Positions 2,145 to 35,029 of a stretch of DNA of 43,382 bases are shown piece by piece. The stretch covers positions 1-43,382 of the IMG/VR virus record IMGVR_UViG_3300017977_000054; one strand, given 5' to 3'. Within the stretch, counting starts at the first letter, position 1; each line of letters starts with the position of its first letter. Below the pieces are notes generated by a model that saw only the letters and a program-made list of their open reading frames with translations, was not told the DNA's origin and made no database searches. The translations under genes were made by a program, and so were the position numbers. This DNA comes from a virus.

Positions 2145-3059
2145 CTAAAGGTCACGTGGGCCTATGTAGTCGAGGGTTGCGACTGTGATGTTTTCGACTG
2201 TGTACTCGCCGCCAGTGGGCACGTTCATGCGTATTATCAGGTTGCTGTTTAGCGTAGTAACTAGCGTCCCCTGTACACGTGCGACGTTGTCTATGAGAGT
2301 TACGCTAGGCTGCCCCAGTGAAAGTATATTCGAGTTGGCTGCGCTCGATATGCTGCCGTTCGGCGTGTCGTCATTCCCCTGCACCATAGCCAGCACGTCT
2401 GTGGTTAAAGTGCCAGCTATAGGTGTGGACGCAAACGACAGGTACGCGGAAGACGACGGCGACGTAGGGGCGGTCCCCATGCTGAATACCAACGTCATGT
2501 CGATCTTATAAATCGATTGGGGGGCCACCGTGAATGTGAGCCCTGTTATATCTTGAGACGCCCCCTCGCTAAACACTTGCGGCGTGCGAATTATGGCTGT
2601 CTGCCGTGCAAGCGCGCCCGTGCCCGTCAGCCTGAACGTTGCGGAGCTTTGGTGGTACTCGCAGGTAACCATGGCCCCCGCCGTAATCTGCCCCGGCGCC
2701 AGCGCGTCACCGGTCGGGCCGTTAAGCGCTAACGCCGTGCCCCCGTTAACCGATAGCGTTACCTCCCCGGTGTTAGTGAACAGCGCGCGAAAGCGAATTG
2801 TCTGCCCGTCGATCAGGGCGCTAGGCGCGATATACCCTGCGTTAGAGTTAACCACCACAGTGTTAGCCGCCACACTAGCATCGGCGTAGAAAGTGCCCAC
2901 CGAGGCGTAGCGGGTTATCGCTTGCGCTAGCTGTGTCAGGTCCGCACCCGACAGGGCCTGCCCGCTCGACGTAATTGCGTTCTGCAGCTCGGACGGCTGC
3001 ACGTTCCACTCGTCTGCGGTAACCTCTTCGCCGGTGCTCTTGTTGTTTAGTTGTTGCAT
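2145..3059 (-). CDS. Tail fibre-like protein
   Basis: A 304-residue protein at the distal end of the tail gene block. The N-terminal 60 residues (NKSTGEEVTADEWN, then a segment about a zero-based list of Q/L-rich helices) match the pattern by which phage fibres attach to the particle. The middle (about 60-150) is a glycine/threonine/serine-rich beta region with short TLSVNGGTALAL-type strands, and the C-terminal half is predicted beta-rich with repeated aliphatic strands. No enzymatic motif is visible. It follows the baseplate genes and the subtilase, where Mu-like phages keep receptor-binding fibres, so it probably contacts the host surface. The receptor cannot be guessed. Confidence 0.7.
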   Translation of the reverse strand: MQQLNNKSTGEEVTADEWNVQPSELQNAITSSGQALSGADLTQLAQAITRYASVGTFYADASVAANTVVVNSNAGYIAPSALIDGQTIRFRALFTNTGEVTLSVNGGTALALNGPTGDALAPGQITAGAMVTCEYHQSSATFRLTGTGALARQTAIIRTPQVFSEGASQDITGLTFTVAPQSIYKIDMTLVFSMGTAPTSPSSSAYLSFASTPIAGTLTTDVLAMVQGNDDTPNGSISSAANSNILSLGQPSVTLIDNVARVQGTLVTTLNSNLIIRMNVPTGGEYTVENITVATLDYIGPRDL

Positions 3060-5586: not shown

Positions 5587-7142
5587 GAGGTGTGCCCCAC
5601 AGTGCCGAGCGTCGCTATGCCGTTACTCGCCACAGGGACGTCTCCGGGCGGCGTTACGAGGCTAAAGTCTTCAACTCGCGAACCGTTGGCAGGGTCCACA
5701 GTGTTAGCGATTGCCGCGCGGTATAAGTCCGCATCGACAGGGGCGCCAACCCGTGTCCGCTCCTCGAAAAACTGGGCGAGGTTGTTAGCTACAGCTTCGC
5801 GCATACTCGCGTTGTCTGGAGTCAAGCTGCTGAACAAGAAGTCTACGGGCGTTGCGACGGGGGCCTCTACGATGTTGTCGCCAGTCGCCGTATTAGCGGG
5901 CAGTATCTCCTCGATTTTAGCCTTAGTAGTCGCCACTGCAGCGGGCGAAGGTATCGGGTCGCTGTCGTTGTCCCGCATAAAGCGAGCTATTACCTGCCCC
6001 AGCGGCACAGACGACGTGGCGGTTATCGCGCCGGTGGCCGGAGTGGCTGGCGCCCCCTCGACCGCGTAAGCAAAAGTGTTCGCATCTATCACTATGACCC
6101 GCGCGTCCTCGACGTTGTACTCGGCCTGCAACGCGCCTGAAATATTCGTGAAGTTGCCGGGGTGCAGTAGGTGCGGCGTCGCAGTCACTACAACGGCCAC
6201 AGACCCGAACCGCTCTATACTGCTGACTTCAACGGTGCTAACCGGCGAGCCTGCCCGCTGCACGAACACTCGAGTAACCCCCGGCACCTCTTTGGCTTTG
6301 GCCACGATGTCGGCCACGTTAAAGTGCGCTACGGGGTTACGTATCTTATCGAGATAGCGGGCTTTGTAGTCAGGCAGCGACTCGGCCTGCGTCCCTCCAG
6401 AAATTTCGGTTTCGGTTACATACAGTGTAGTCGCGACGCCGGGCAGTGGCGATTGTAGCTGCAAAGGCGCATCGGCAGGCAGGTTAACCCTCGCGCCCTC
6501 TGAGACCGAGGCTACGGGCACCGAGGCAATAGCGAACGACACTACCGGCGACCCTGTGGCAGCGGGCATCGTGAGCAACAGGATAGGGTAGGTAAACGTA
6601 GTCGGGCCGGTCACGGTAACAGGGACATCAGCCACGTTGTAGAACAGAGTAGCCCCGGTCGCACCCGTAACGGTCACAGGTACACCCGTAGTTAGCCCGT
6701 GGGGCGCGGCTGTCTCTGCGTACGCTACGTACACCGCAGAGGTTAAAGACGCTATGGCTAGTGACTGCGCGCTAATAGTGGCGGCGGAGGTAGACTCATA
6801 CTCGTTAGCACCCGACGACACTTTAGTGCCGGACGGGATGGTCGCCCCGTCAGTGCCCGACGCCACAGCCACGCCAGTAGCGCCGCTGGCGGCGTTCGGC
6901 GGCCCCACGTATATGCCGCCCCATATAGGTGCGGTGTCGCTGTCCGCCGTATCGGGGAAGAGCCGGCGTTCGGTGCGATGTAGGTCGCGATATAAATCGA
7001 ATATGCGGCGCGCTAGCCCTGCGATCAGTGACCGCAACCAGTGCATAGGTAGGTACGGGTTAGAGTCCGGTGCCTCTCGCTGCACGTCTGTTTTTATCCG
7101 GCCCTCTACCTGCGTAGCGTCGTCTGGGGTGTATATAGGCAT
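5583..7142 (-). CDS. Baseplate J-like protein (Mu gp47-like) with inserted beta domains
   Basis: I chose the ATG at 7142 (519 residues), two bases after the preceding stop and behind GGGAA; a GTG at 7169 would add nine residues. The N-terminal region, the GT.V.SG...Y..T segment and the LPDYKARYLDKIRNP region are typical of baseplate J/gp47, a wedge protein of contractile tails. Two segments (about 137-187 and 311-361 in this numbering) follow a common pattern, APHxL..G..V..(S/T)GA...YNV......TFxY, resembling small FCCH-like beta domains that decorate some phage proteins. A related segment occurs in the protein at 14728-15855. The order gp46, J, gp48 matches Mu. Confidence 0.88.
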   Translation of the reverse strand: MPIYTPDDATQVEGRIKTDVQREAPDSNPYLPMHWLRSLIAGLARRIFDLYRDLHRTERRLFPDTADSDTAPIWGGIYVGPPNAASGATGVAVASGTDGATIPSGTKVSSGANEYESTSAATISAQSLAIASLTSAVYVAYAETAAPHGLTTGVPVTVTGATGATLFYNVADVPVTVTGPTTFTYPILLLTMPAATGSPVVSFAIASVPVASVSEGARVNLPADAPLQLQSPLPGVATTLYVTETEISGGTQAESLPDYKARYLDKIRNPVAHFNVADIVAKAKEVPGVTRVFVQRAGSPVSTVEVSSIERFGSVAVVVTATPHLLHPGNFTNISGALQAEYNVEDARVIVIDANTFAYAVEGAPATPATGAITATSSVPLGQVIARFMRDNDSDPIPSPAAVATTKAKIEEILPANTATGDNIVEAPVATPVDFLFSSLTPDNASMREAVANNLAQFFEERTRVGAPVDADLYRAAIANTVDPANGSRVEDFSLVTPPGDVPVASNGIATLGTVGHTS

Positions 7143-7144
7143 TT

Positions 7145-7591
7145 TTAAAAGTTCCCGGTGTTCTGCCACAGGGCGTAGGTCTCTTGCGAGATTTTAGACC
7201 CCGAGCGGTAGAGTGTTATGTCGACTTGCACGCCTTGACGGGTGAGCCGCGGAGCCCCCACCTGTACGTCGTCAGCTAGTTTATACGTGATAAGCGGCTG
7301 CAGGGCGTTACGCACCACAGGCCCTAGTTCGGCCAAAGTTGTGCCTGTGACCCGCTCTTGCTCGAACAGCCACGCTTTGCCGCCCTGCTCAAAGTCTGGT
7401 GTACTCTCGTTGCCTGCCCATCCTCGCCGGCGGCTCGCCTCCGGCATTTCACTAGGGCTAGCCCGCTGCTCTTCATACAGGCACAACAGTATAGCGGTGT
7501 CTAGCGACTGCGCGGTGCTTATGTCGCCCGTTTCAGTCCAGCTAAAATCCCAGTAGCCCTTGTCGTCGTTAAGCTGTACGTCGGTAGTCAT
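7145..7591 (-). CDS. Mu gp46-like baseplate protein
   Basis: A 148-residue protein of the Mu gp46/GpW-gp25-related group. The WxFSWTETGDISTAQSLDTA segment near the N-terminus (about 14-33), the RRRGWAGNE segment (54-62) and the C-terminal VRNALQPLI/VDITLYR strands are the family marks. Such proteins form the baseplate wedge core together with the J-like protein and hold the sheath to the tube. It lies between the gp45-like spike gene and the J-like gene, as in Mu. Length and order leave little doubt. Confidence 0.87.
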   Translation of the reverse strand: MTTDVQLNDDKGYWDFSWTETGDISTAQSLDTAILLCLYEEQRASPSEMPEASRRRGWAGNESTPDFEQGGKAWLFEQERVTGTTLAELGPVVRNALQPLITYKLADDVQVGAPRLTRQGVQVDITLYRSGSKISQETYALWQNTGNF

Positions 7592-30182: not shown

Positions 30183-30210
30183 TTTACTTAGTGGTGGGTT
30201 TTGCTAGTAT
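30183..30210 (+). promoter_or_regulatory. Candidate promoter with extended -10
   Basis: TTTACT (30183-30188) and an extended -10 TGCTAGTAT (30202-30210) are separated by 16 bases. It lies in the 95-base gap after the primase-helicase gene and would start transcription about 30-35 bases before the small gene at 30249. A core-like pattern of this quality can arise by chance. Confidence 0.4.
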
Positions 30211-30251
30211 TTAATTAACAACGATGACAATTAAACGAGGCACCCACCATG
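30210..30251 (+). repeat. Duplicated leader: TTTAATTAACAAC plus ACGAGG-ATG segment
   Basis: TTTAATTAACAAC (30210-30222) recurs exactly at 33541-33553, and the ribosome-binding segment 30235-30251 is identical at 14 of 17 positions with 33556-33572. Both copies sit directly before small-gene starts. The 13-mer contains the palindrome TTAATTAA. Confidence 0.75.
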
Positions 30252-32137: not shown

Positions 32138-32316
32138 GTCCCCTCTGCATCCACGCCTGCACGCTACACCTTGGCGGTGAGCACTGCCGCGGGTGCGGCC
32201 AGACCGTCAGAGAGCGCTACAACTGGCACGAGTTAACCGAAGAAGAAAAGCAACAAGCTACCGAGAGGTCGGAAAAATGCAAAGCAAGAAACAAAGCGCA
32301 ATCGAGTCAGCCGTAA
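32134..32316 (+). CDS. DUF1289-like small zinc-binding protein
   Basis: The 60-residue protein has the DUF1289 pattern: SPLCIHACTLHLGGEHCRGC (residues 2-21), with cysteines at about 5, 9, 18 and 21, then WHELTEEEKQQATER. The family is short and of unknown function; the cysteines probably bind zinc. It starts with GTG overlapping the preceding stop and its C-terminus lies within the overlapping start of the following gene. Confidence 0.75.
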   Translation: MSPLCIHACTLHLGGEHCRGCGQTVRERYNWHELTEEEKQQATERSEKCKARNKAQSSQP

Positions 32317-32789
32317 ACACTGCGGCCGGCTTAGCCCTGTCTTACGCTGCAGGGCTGATCGTCTACCCGTTGCTCGGGTTTCCCGTAACCTATGGTCAAA
32401 ACGCAGCAATAGTGGCCGTGTTTACCGCCATCAGCTTAATACGGTGCTACGTCGTCCGCCGACTCTTCAGTCGCAGCCGTAGTACTGACGGGCCACTTAT
32501 CGCCGCAGCCAACAAGCCGCTTGGCCGCTTATCGCTTATCGCTTCGGCGCTGCGCTACATACGGCCAGAAATGTGCTGGCGTAACGTAGGCCACATACTG
32601 CGCGTGAACACCGCCACGCCTGAAGAAGAGGCCGACATGTACCGCGCTTGGTCCGAGTGGTGTTCACACATACCGCCGAAGAAACGGCAGGCCGCATGGC
32701 AGAAGTTCCAGACGTCCGAGTCATCACCGGCTAGTCTTGACGCGCTCCTTCGCTTCGCCCGCTCTAAGGGCTGGAGGGCGCCGGCATGA
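32277..32789 (+). CDS. Membrane protein, DUF7220-like N-terminus
   Basis: I chose ATG 32277 (170 residues), which has GAGAGG upstream; an earlier in-frame start exists at 32193. The N-terminal segment (KKQSAIESAVNTAAGLALSY, then IVYPLLGFPVTYGQNAAIVA) carries two membrane-spanning helices (about 12-32 and 40-60), ending RCYVVRRLFSR. This matches a two-helix phage family (DUF7220). The second half is soluble and helical (YIRPEMCWRNVGHILRV). The C-terminal half has no clear match and may be an added domain. Confidence 0.65.
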   Translation: MQSKKQSAIESAVNTAAGLALSYAAGLIVYPLLGFPVTYGQNAAIVAVFTAISLIRCYVVRRLFSRSRSTDGPLIAAANKPLGRLSLIASALRYIRPEMCWRNVGHILRVNTATPEEEADMYRAWSEWCSHIPPKKRQAAWQKFQTSESSPASLDALLRFARSKGWRAPA

Positions 32790-32935: not shown

Positions 32936-33204
32936 CGCTAGACGAGCTGATAGAACTCAGGGGCCACGCGGCATCGCCCGCCCGCCCTGACGAAGTGACA
33001 CTGAGAGAGCTACTAAAACGCAAGGGCCATGGGTCCGCCATAACTCTAGCCAACGAGCTAGGGGTGCGACACGGCGCGGTGCTCCGGTGGTCGAGTAGAG
33101 GCGCCAAAGTGACGGCGCTCGGCCACATCATCAGCGGCAGCACCCAACCCCGTCTGTTAGCCGACATGGGCAAGCCCTTAGACCCCGAGGAGCTTGTCAA
33201 ATGA
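32932..33204 (+). CDS. Putative HTH DNA-binding protein
   Basis: The 90-residue protein has a central segment ITLANELGVRHGAVLRWSSRG (outlined) that looks like a helix-turn-helix in which ELGV begins the turn and AVLRW starts the recognition helix. Such Cro-like proteins regulate phage operons. The rest is hydrophilic with an acidic N-terminus. Overlaps with both neighbours are four bases. Cro/CI function is a reasonable guess, not proven. Confidence 0.6.
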   Translation: MTLDELIELRGHAASPARPDEVTLRELLKRKGHGSAITLANELGVRHGAVLRWSSRGAKVTALGHIISGSTQPRLLADMGKPLDPEELVK

Positions 33205-33545
33205 TCCTATGGCAGTACTGGCAGTCCTCAGGCGGTCGAGTGCGGTTACAGTACGGCGCCCCCGTCGAATGTTATGTGGTCGGCTGGGGGTGGGCGCGCT
33301 TAGTCTTCCAGCTACAGCCCGCACGGGTGGTCGAGCACTCCACCGGCATGGAGGTCGCGGACATCCCACCCGACAGTACAGGACCATGGCAAGAGCAGGC
33401 CCGTATCGCGGTGGAGTCAGTCGCGGTGCCTGAAATTGTTAAAGGTGCACCGGTTTTAAACCCGCACGTGCGTATGGCGACAGACGGGCGGCGCTTTTTA
33501 AAGGACGAGTGGCTGGCAAGTGCGCACAGGTGGGCTAAGCTTTAA
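33201..33545 (+). CDS. Hypothetical protein
   Basis: A 114-residue protein with a hydrophobic, tryptophan-rich N-terminus (ILWQYWQSSGGRVRL, VVGWGWARLVF). It may associate with membranes, but has no clear transmembrane helix. The second half is helical and basic. Its stop codon TAA overlaps the TTTAATTAACAAC leader of the GGDEF gene. No family is recognised. Confidence 0.55.
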   Translation: MILWQYWQSSGGRVRLQYGAPVECYVVGWGWARLVFQLQPARVVEHSTGMEVADIPPDSTGPWQEQARIAVESVAVPEIVKGAPVLNPHVRMATDGRRFLKDEWLASAHRWAKL

Positions 33546-33572
33546 TTAACAACCAACGAGGTACGCGCCATG
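33541..33572 (+). repeat. Second copy of TTTAATTAACAAC plus ACGAGG leader
   Basis: TTTAATTAACAAC (33541-33553) matches 30210-30222, and ACGAGGTACGCGCCATG (33556-33572) matches 30235-30251 at 14 of 17 positions. Here the leader also contains AACCAAC, the word found in the terminal tracts and before the 37792 gene. The upstream gene ends inside this element. Confidence 0.75.
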
Positions 33573-34064
33573 AATAATTTACTTGAAAAACTCCGCCAAA
33601 TGGACGAGCAAGAAATCTACAGCCTAGTTTACTCGGACCCGCTAACTGGCGTCGGTAACCGCCGCGCCTATGACGAAGATGCACGAGGTCACTTGGCGAT
33701 AATCGACTTAGACTCGCTTAAGTACGTCAACGACACGTTAGGCCACCGCTACGGCGACCGCCAACTGCTAAACCTGGCATGCGTTTTAGTGCTGACTTTT
33801 GGCCACGACAACGTGTACCGTATTTCGGGCGACGAGTTCGCGGTTAAATTCGACGAGGCGCCAGACGACGCCCGATTCCGAAGCATGCACCGCCTTTTCC
33901 CTGGTTTTAGCTACGGCATTGGGCAGGACGTCGTAAGCGCCGACGCGGCTTTAAGCGCGCAAAAAGCACTACGAGAGCGTCTTGGTCTACGGGCTTCACG
34001 CGGGGAGCGCCCCGCTTGGTTCGAAAGTTTTCAAGCTGACTGCGAGCAAGTACGTGTCGCTTAA
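33570..34064 (+). CDS. Stand-alone GGDEF-domain protein (diguanylate cyclase-like)
   Basis: The 164-residue protein is essentially one GGDEF domain. It has DPLTGVGNRR (23-32), IIDLDSLKYVNDTLGHRYGD (44-63) with metal residue Asp46 and substrate-binding Asn54/Asp63 equivalents, and RISGDEF (84-90), an SGDEF variant of the active-site motif. YGIG (115-118) and SADAALSAQKALR are further domain marks. The inhibitory I-site would need R-x-x-D before the motif; it reads FGHD (77-80), so the arginine is missing. There is no signal, membrane segment or sensor domain. It may make c-di-GMP or another cyclic nucleotide, or be an inactive binding protein. It has its own duplicated leader. Confidence 0.85.
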   Translation: MNNLLEKLRQMDEQEIYSLVYSDPLTGVGNRRAYDEDARGHLAIIDLDSLKYVNDTLGHRYGDRQLLNLACVLVLTFGHDNVYRISGDEFAVKFDEAPDDARFRSMHRLFPGFSYGIGQDVVSADAALSAQKALRERLGLRASRGERPAWFESFQADCEQVRVA

Positions 34065-34585: not shown

Positions 34586-34730
34586 GGCGGTCGTTCTGGT
34601 GGCGCTTGTGGTTTTGCGCGTCACGTACCTAATACTAGAACTTATCGGGGGCGCCGTTCTCGATTTATGGCGTGACTCCCCGCTGCTATTGGCCGCACTG
34701 GTGGCGGCGCTCTATATCTTGTTCGGCTAG
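34569..34730 (+). CDS. Small two-helix membrane protein (possible holin-like)
   Basis: A complete 53-residue frame from ATG 34569 to TAG 34730; a second in-frame ATG at 34578 has a better upstream purine stretch. It has two hydrophobic segments, about residues 6-28 (ARAVVLVALVVL...TYLILEL) and 38-53 (PLLLAALVAALYILFG), separated by a short acidic loop. A holin-like, toxin-like or anchoring role is possible. It is the last gene of the rightward early operon. Its stop shares a CTAG palindrome with the convergent gene at 34727. Confidence 0.6.
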   Translation: MQVMARAVVLVALVVLRVTYLILELIGGAVLDLWRDSPLLLAALVAALYILFG

Positions 34731-35029
34731 AGCGCTTCAAGCGCTCGCGCCTTCCATTGTTTACTTTTTCCCGCCACTGCCGGGTGCTTCAACATTACAG
34801 CCTGCCCTGCAACACGCCACCGGCGCTGCTCGATTGCCTCTTTAACGATAGCGTCGCGAAAAAGGTCTGCGCTTTTAAAGTGGTACGTTAGCGCCGAAGG
34901 GTTAAGCCCCAGCCGTTTAGCTACGGCGCTAATTGTAACTAGCGGGTAACAGCGCTGGTCGGCCAATTCAAGCCCCGCCCGCACTGCCTGCGCTTTCCGC
35001 TCTTCAGGTTTTAAACGCGTCAATTTCAT
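34727..35029 (-). CDS. TetR-like helix-turn-helix protein
   Basis: The 100-residue protein has the TetR N-terminal domain layout: AVRAGLELADQRCYPLVTIS helix, then AVAKRLGLNPSALTYHF (outlined; recognition helix near residues 55-72) and DLFRDAIVKEAIEQRR. TetR proteins normally have an additional ligand-binding domain, which is missing here; the rest is a short basic tail (GKSKQWKARALEAL). It lies at the end of the helicase operon and likely controls nearby phage genes. Stop shared as CTAG with the membrane protein opposite. Confidence 0.7.
   Translation of the reverse strand: MKLTRLKPEERKAQAVRAGLELADQRCYPLVTISAVAKRLGLNPSALTYHFKSADLFRDAIVKEAIEQRRWRVAGQAVMLKHPAVAGKSKQWKARALEAL

Follow-up and report, generated by a model that had tools for sequence, protein, structure and literature searches.

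A miniature stand-alone GGDEF protein, putatively a diguanylate cyclase, in a new carrier of a phage accessory gene family

The viral DNA considered here (the window; the whole stretch of 43,382 nucleotides of IMG/VR record IMGVR_UViG_3300017977_000054) carries a short gene for a GGDEF protein, P0001, preceded by a repeated leader and a gene of no recognised family. The features of the locus are as follows.

30210–30222 (+), leader repeat copy 1, TTTAATTAACAAC, followed by an ACGAGG-ATG start
33201–33545 (+), upstream neighbour of 114 aa, without a family in family searches and not common to other carriers
33541–33553 (+), leader repeat copy 2, TTTAATTAACAAC, an exact copy of 30210–30222 that overlaps the stop of the upstream ORF
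33556–33561 (+), ribosome-binding site ACGAGG, about 8 nt 5' of the GGDEF ATG (from sequence)
33570–34064 (+), miniature stand-alone GGDEF protein P0001 (Pfam GGDEF, phage homologues, AF2 model)
33636–33647 (+), DPLT, D23–T26, opening the GGDEF core (translation; D23 and T26 invariant in 12 members)
33705–33722 (+), D46-L-D-S-L-K51, metal Asp and phosphate Lys (D46, D48 and K51 invariant)
33729–33758 (+), N54–D63, NDTLGHRYGD, guanine-recognition residues (N54, D55, H59, G62 and D63 invariant)
33798–33809 (+), F77-G-H-D80 at the position of the RxxD inhibitory site, without Arg (translation and family alignment)
33825–33839 (+), S86-G-D-E-F90 active-site motif (G87, D88, E89 and F90 invariant)
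33963–34019 (+), phage-specific C-terminal tail K132..R135...G139.R141..R144-G145..P148.W150 (12-member alignment)

The P0001 reading frame runs from ATG to TAA and encodes 164 residues with no internal stops. The protein matches the Pfam GGDEF profile (PF00990; E = 3.5e-12, 46.8 bits against a curated cut-off of 23.8) and diguanylate cyclases in the PDB (best E 2.8e-8). An AF2 model (pLDDT 92.6, pTM 0.86) has a complete catalytic palm core, and its best 50 Foldseek matches in the PDB are all GGDEF-domain proteins (TMq ~0.43–0.64), including SadC, DgcR, WspR and PleD; the best viral match is a protein of Bordetella phage CN1 (TMq 0.82). A preliminary description of this DNA, which had proposed modelling against PleD and WspR, spoke of a complete, minimal GGDEF domain. 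This holds for the palm core of the model, whereas the Pfam alignment spans profile positions 4–94 of 161 only and the domain is shortened at two places. Its residue assignments (DxLT, Asp46, Asn54, Asp63 and SGDEF) agree with the translation, and the arginine of the I-site RxxD, which would lie five residues ahead of the GGDEF motif, is missing from P0001, as it had claimed; it is missing from every aligned family member too. A domain search found no sensor or second domain besides GGDEF, in keeping with a stand-alone protein devoid of sensor and membrane anchor. A domain in a 1143-aa piece of an unnamed viral protein (BFVD A0A516M277_1) also matches the compact GGDEF (TMq 0.76, 32% identity), and such domains may occur inside very large phage proteins as well.

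Genes at the locus are tightly packed, with 4-nt overlaps between the upstream ORFs and a gap of 24 nt before the GGDEF gene, and the duplicated leader is real; both features had been noted in the preliminary description. The two exact copies of the leader each precede an ACGAGG-ATG start, and at up to two mismatches the window holds 3 matches where 0.51 are expected; the leader was sought in L013, the nearest relative of the window, and is absent there. An Rfam search for an RNA element or riboswitch gave no match, and a promoter and terminator scan did no better than shuffles. A conserved partner gene was rejected, as the flanking genes differ among the window, YuA, L015, L017, L110, L111 and L112; the DNA-binding neighbour seen in Yuavirus is also present where the GGDEF gene is not. 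In L013 a sigma-factor-like gene (6617–7213; Sigma70 regions 2 and 4) lies directly 3' of the GGDEF gene. Within the window, the 100-aa product of 34727–35029 (−) has only the DNA-binding N-terminus of a TetR-type protein, Oceanospirillum phage PD0307 having a TetR-annotated gene at a similar place. In the 198-aa product of 32193–32789 (+), DUF7220 (1.3e-23) precedes a weak PriCT_2-like stretch, PriCT_2 being found also in the large primase nearby.

The window virus has a contractile tail, terminase, portal, D5-type primase, helicase, exonuclease, ssDNA-binding protein and DNA polymerase. Vibrio phage VP16, PD0307 and relatives have the most similar helicase and exonuclease; the place corresponding to the GGDEF gene is taken in PD0307 by other small genes, none of them annotated as GGDEF. 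No integrase was recognised among window ORFs that encode at least about 300 aa, and the largest unassigned ORF (2145–3059, 304 aa) has no family match. The phage is probably lytic. The best-known GGDEF carriers belong to the Mesyanzhinovviridae, and a sensitive 2025 survey of 75 genomes of this family found no integrase, ascribed earlier integrase reports to misannotated primase-helicases, and noted that stable lysogens of YuA, AN14 and Lydia were not obtained (PMC11946847). The GGDEF carriers are apparently lytic.

The family to which P0001 belongs is not new, and the finding is of a new carrier of a known phage gene family. Proteins of the same kind, represented by YuA gp44, occur in Pseudomonas and Bordetella phages, and this GGDEF-only protein has already been discussed (PMC10333796; PMC8471281). 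Homologues with 51–56% identity over at least 80% of the length were found in 47 phage records, 39 from Pseudomonas (Yuavirus and EKU1) and 8 from Bordetella (Vojvodinavirus). Several are annotated as 'diguanylate-cyclase GGDEF domain', and YuA gp44 itself as 'contains diguanylate-cyclase domain; putative role in host cell conversion'. P0001 shares with gp44 and its Yuavirus and Vojvodinavirus orthologues (MP1412, AN14, CN1, CN2, FP1 and MW2) its length class, 51–56% identity over about 90%, the motif set, the missing I-site Arg, the tail, and a setting as a stand-alone gene among accessory early genes; it differs in its carrier, which is contractile-tailed, has a VP16/PD0307-like helicase and exonuclease, and places other genes next to it. 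An IMG/VR scan with the single protein P0001 found nothing, whereas alignment-based scans added L013 (55% identity), L015 (49%), L111 (47%), L110 and L112 (45%) and L017 (40%). The helicase of L013 is 65% identical to that of the window phage; among the L-numbered carriers the terminase, primase and helicase families differ, and the genes around GGDEF differ between carriers except among close relatives. In two trees with cellular GGDEF domains the phage family forms one clade (SH-aLRT 99 in the first; bootstrap/SH-aLRT 98/96 in the second). What is new is the phage-only clade formed by the 12 members compared, which spans unrelated phage types, together with its miniaturisation and basic tail, the invariance of its key residues bar one and its dN/dS, the exact Yuavirus cassette described below, and the apparently lytic nature of the carriers, with which the published role in lysogenic conversion agrees poorly. 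An Escherichia phage ERS-1 'relative' was rejected, its record being unverified and the match a Yuavirus-like piece broken by a stop; phrog_5594 (528 positions) was not confirmed as a fusion, and plasmid matches were generic GGDEF domains only.

Conservation was assessed across these 12 members, which are ~40–56% identical. Invariant in all 12 are D23, T26, N30, R31, D46, D48, K51, N54, D55, H59 and D63, as well as R84, G87-D-E-F90 and K132. Of the key residues examined only the first of the GGDEF motif varies, being S, A or G (L110 has the canonical motif) and deleted in L112; since all the others are invariant in a phage-only clade of such divergence, a working enzyme is favoured. Serine at this position is a non-canonical, tolerated variant: SGDEF or AGDEF occurs in the active, tested enzymes ECA3270 and VCA0965 (PMC3974145), and MbaA is a further active enzyme with a motif of this type (PMC8967002); a Ser placed at the first motif position of VCA0965 abolished activity (PMC3974145). 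Of the triphosphate contacts in the last helix (PleD K442 and R446), the Lys is kept as the invariant K132, whereas K+4 is Glu in most members; an invariant Arg at K+3 may stand in for the R446 equivalent. Between DxLT and the metal Asp the family has 23–25 residues against 29–40 in the cellular set (about 9 fewer), and between GDEF and the last-helix Lys 40–44 against a cellular median of 59 (about 16 fewer), the cellular ranges being pattern-based and hence noisy. The tail residues K, R, G, R, R, G, P and W are invariant across the 12 members and absent from the cellular GGDEFs compared. In Yuavirus and Vojvodinavirus the gene has a dN/dS of ~0.18–0.40, and the protein is under purifying selection, maintained where present yet dispensable. 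The L112 member (5998–6462) reads RLGDEF, with one motif residue deleted and all remaining catalytic residues present; the variant is either dead or compensated, or else reflects a sequencing error. The gene of phage EKU1 (L007:2025–2591) is frameshifted in its second half relative to other Yuavirus copies. On the evidence of these two genes, loss is tolerated.

Compared with the cellular diguanylate cyclases SadC, DgcR, DgcZ, WspR and PleD, P0001 has the same fold, DxLT, metal Asp, Lys, Asn/Asp base readers, (G/S/A)GDEF and last-helix Lys, and differs in having no sensor, stalk or I-site Arg, two shortenings, an extra tail, and a replacement of the K+4 Arg. The nearest large cellular clade in both trees comprises clostridial and Lachnospiraceae [IV]SGDEF domains (L024, L034, L066 and others), which likewise have RISGDEF and a DK..(Y/R)..(T/S)G..R end; they are set apart from the phage family as a separate clade across a long branch, at 27–34% identity, and have longer loops.

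The Yuavirus genomes show how the gene is carried. Among 53 Yuavirus-type records, defined by a TerL identity of at least 99% and counted by comparing record lists, 38 carry the GGDEF gene and 15 do not. The DNA alignment of AN14 with PSP2 ends at 5990 and restarts at 6473, so that AN14 5991–6472 is absent from PSP2, and this gap is exactly the GGDEF gene (5992–6462) with a few flanking bases. Immediately 3' of the AN14 cassette is a 40-bp element that is repeated elsewhere in the region, and the YuA record annotates such repeats as promoters. Promoter-like elements of ~40 bp lie between Yuavirus accessory genes at L003:4713–4754 and 6473–6510 and, in YuA, at L002:4436–4463 and 6476–6503. Copies at the ends of cassettes that are present or absent may drive cassette exchange. 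In several carriers the next gene after GGDEF is an anti-restriction gene. The GGDEF gene behaves as an optional accessory cassette, gained and lost among related phages, probably in a slot for host interaction, and because the Yuavirus cassette adjoins an anti-restriction gene it may have a part in host takeover. Near-identical phages that naturally have no GGDEF gene include PSP2, LKO4, M6 and Lydia, and several carriers infect P. aeruginosa PAO1; with such natural pairs on PAO1, the cyclase question can be addressed without the window's own host.

The balance tips slightly towards P0001 being a stand-alone, unregulated enzyme that converts GTP to c-di-GMP without feedback, encoded in an accessory cassette and used during lytic infection. 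In its favour are the predicted GGDEF fold, the conserved metal, GTP-base and most phosphate contacts, the absence of sensor and anchor, a phage-only clade under purifying selection and the exact cassette of Yuavirus; against it stand the first residue of SGDEF, the Glu at K+4, the shortening of about 16 residues between GDEF and the last helix, the tolerated loss seen in L112 and EKU1, and the LK3 phenotype given below. By its residues P0001 can probably use GTP, and a different cyclic dinucleotide, as the preliminary description had also entertained, is unlikely on sequence in view of the invariant guanine-reading N54 and D63. Two copies would meet through their short N-terminal helices and the dimer would condense two GTP into c-di-GMP; since the enzyme senses no signal and lacks the I-site to which product would bind, expression alone would set its output. 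With less support, the rise in c-di-GMP might alter the surface and motility of the infected cell (pili, flagella, exopolysaccharide) or its GTP-signalling state, and the altered state would serve the phage, for example as a block to superinfection, rather than lysogenic conversion. Neither an enzymatic test of any family member nor a tested phage-encoded diguanylate cyclase was found in the literature searched. Phages usually destroy or sequester signal nucleotides, and making one in lytic infection would, if true, be unusual; the miniature domain would also show the minimum of the GGDEF fold needed for catalysis. More tentatively, and with considerable doubt, a miniature product-insensitive cyclase might be a mobile anti-host cassette of unrelated lytic phages, its phage-specific target or regulation given by the invariant basic tail and its use acute, to block superinfection or to interfere with immunity that relies on nucleotides, not in biofilm.

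The alternative that fares best, though we think it rather unlikely, is that P0001 performs no useful c-di-GMP synthesis and binds GTP, c-di-GMP or a host protein as a sponge or protein effector, through the conserved palm and the invariant basic C-terminal tail. The non-canonical or, in L112, deleted first motif residue, the loss of the strict R446 position and of the accessory region, and a tail (R135..R141..R144-G145..P148.W150) conserved as strongly as the active site are all consistent with this, and degenerate GGDEF proteins whose action rests on binding are known (PMC3974145). However, the metal Asp, GDE and guanine contacts are invariant over large divergence, as expected of catalysis, whereas degenerate domains usually lose them, and with the I-site the usual c-di-GMP receptor site is gone.

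An improbable reading is counter-defence, in which a cyclic dinucleotide or linear intermediate would compete with or desensitise nucleotide-based immunity (CBASS, Thoeris, type III CRISPR or systems of the Panoptes type). A decoy in cyclic-nucleotide immunity, raised in the preliminary description, would likewise be speculative. The exchangeable slot beside anti-restriction genes in Yuavirus, carriage by several types of phage that are apparently lytic and a patchy presence that recalls anti-defence genes would suit it, and related minimal palm enzymes produce immunity signals (PMC12657218). One of these, mCpol/OptS of Panoptes, resembles P0001 by its description as a minimal palm-type cyclase without a sensor (PMC12657218); by description its GGDEF motif is almost gone and its products are cyclic di-AMP or mixed, whereas P0001 matches PF00990 and keeps both the guanine readers and the motif set. 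Against counter-defence, the guanine-specific residues point to c-di-GMP as the product, and few of the known defence effectors use it; a PADLOC-DB search of P0001 gave no match at E ≤ 0.01, and phages are known to degrade or sequester such signals rather than synthesise them.

Lysogenic conversion, in which a persisting phage would raise biofilm formation of its carrier bacterium, as the YuA gp44 annotation suggests and as the lifestyle change and biofilm of the preliminary description could be read, is very improbable: with no integrase recognised in the window or found in the Mesyanzhinovviridae survey a role in lytic infection fits better, the lysogen results cited above point the same way, and the sole family match in a scan of one genome per species (GTDB), L022, is a contig in a metagenome bin whose DNA is 82–95% identical to Vojvodinavirus/Yuavirus. 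LK3-infected B. bronchiseptica forms more biofilm, for which the gene was suspected without a mutant, but swims more in one strain (PMC8471281), a phenotype that differs from that of simple high c-di-GMP.

Other stand-alone GGDEF proteins of phages (L018:1710–2189, L114:5989–6471 and L115:6007–6489) form a second clade, separate from this family, which is found in AT-rich genomes and groups with ordinary cellular domains.
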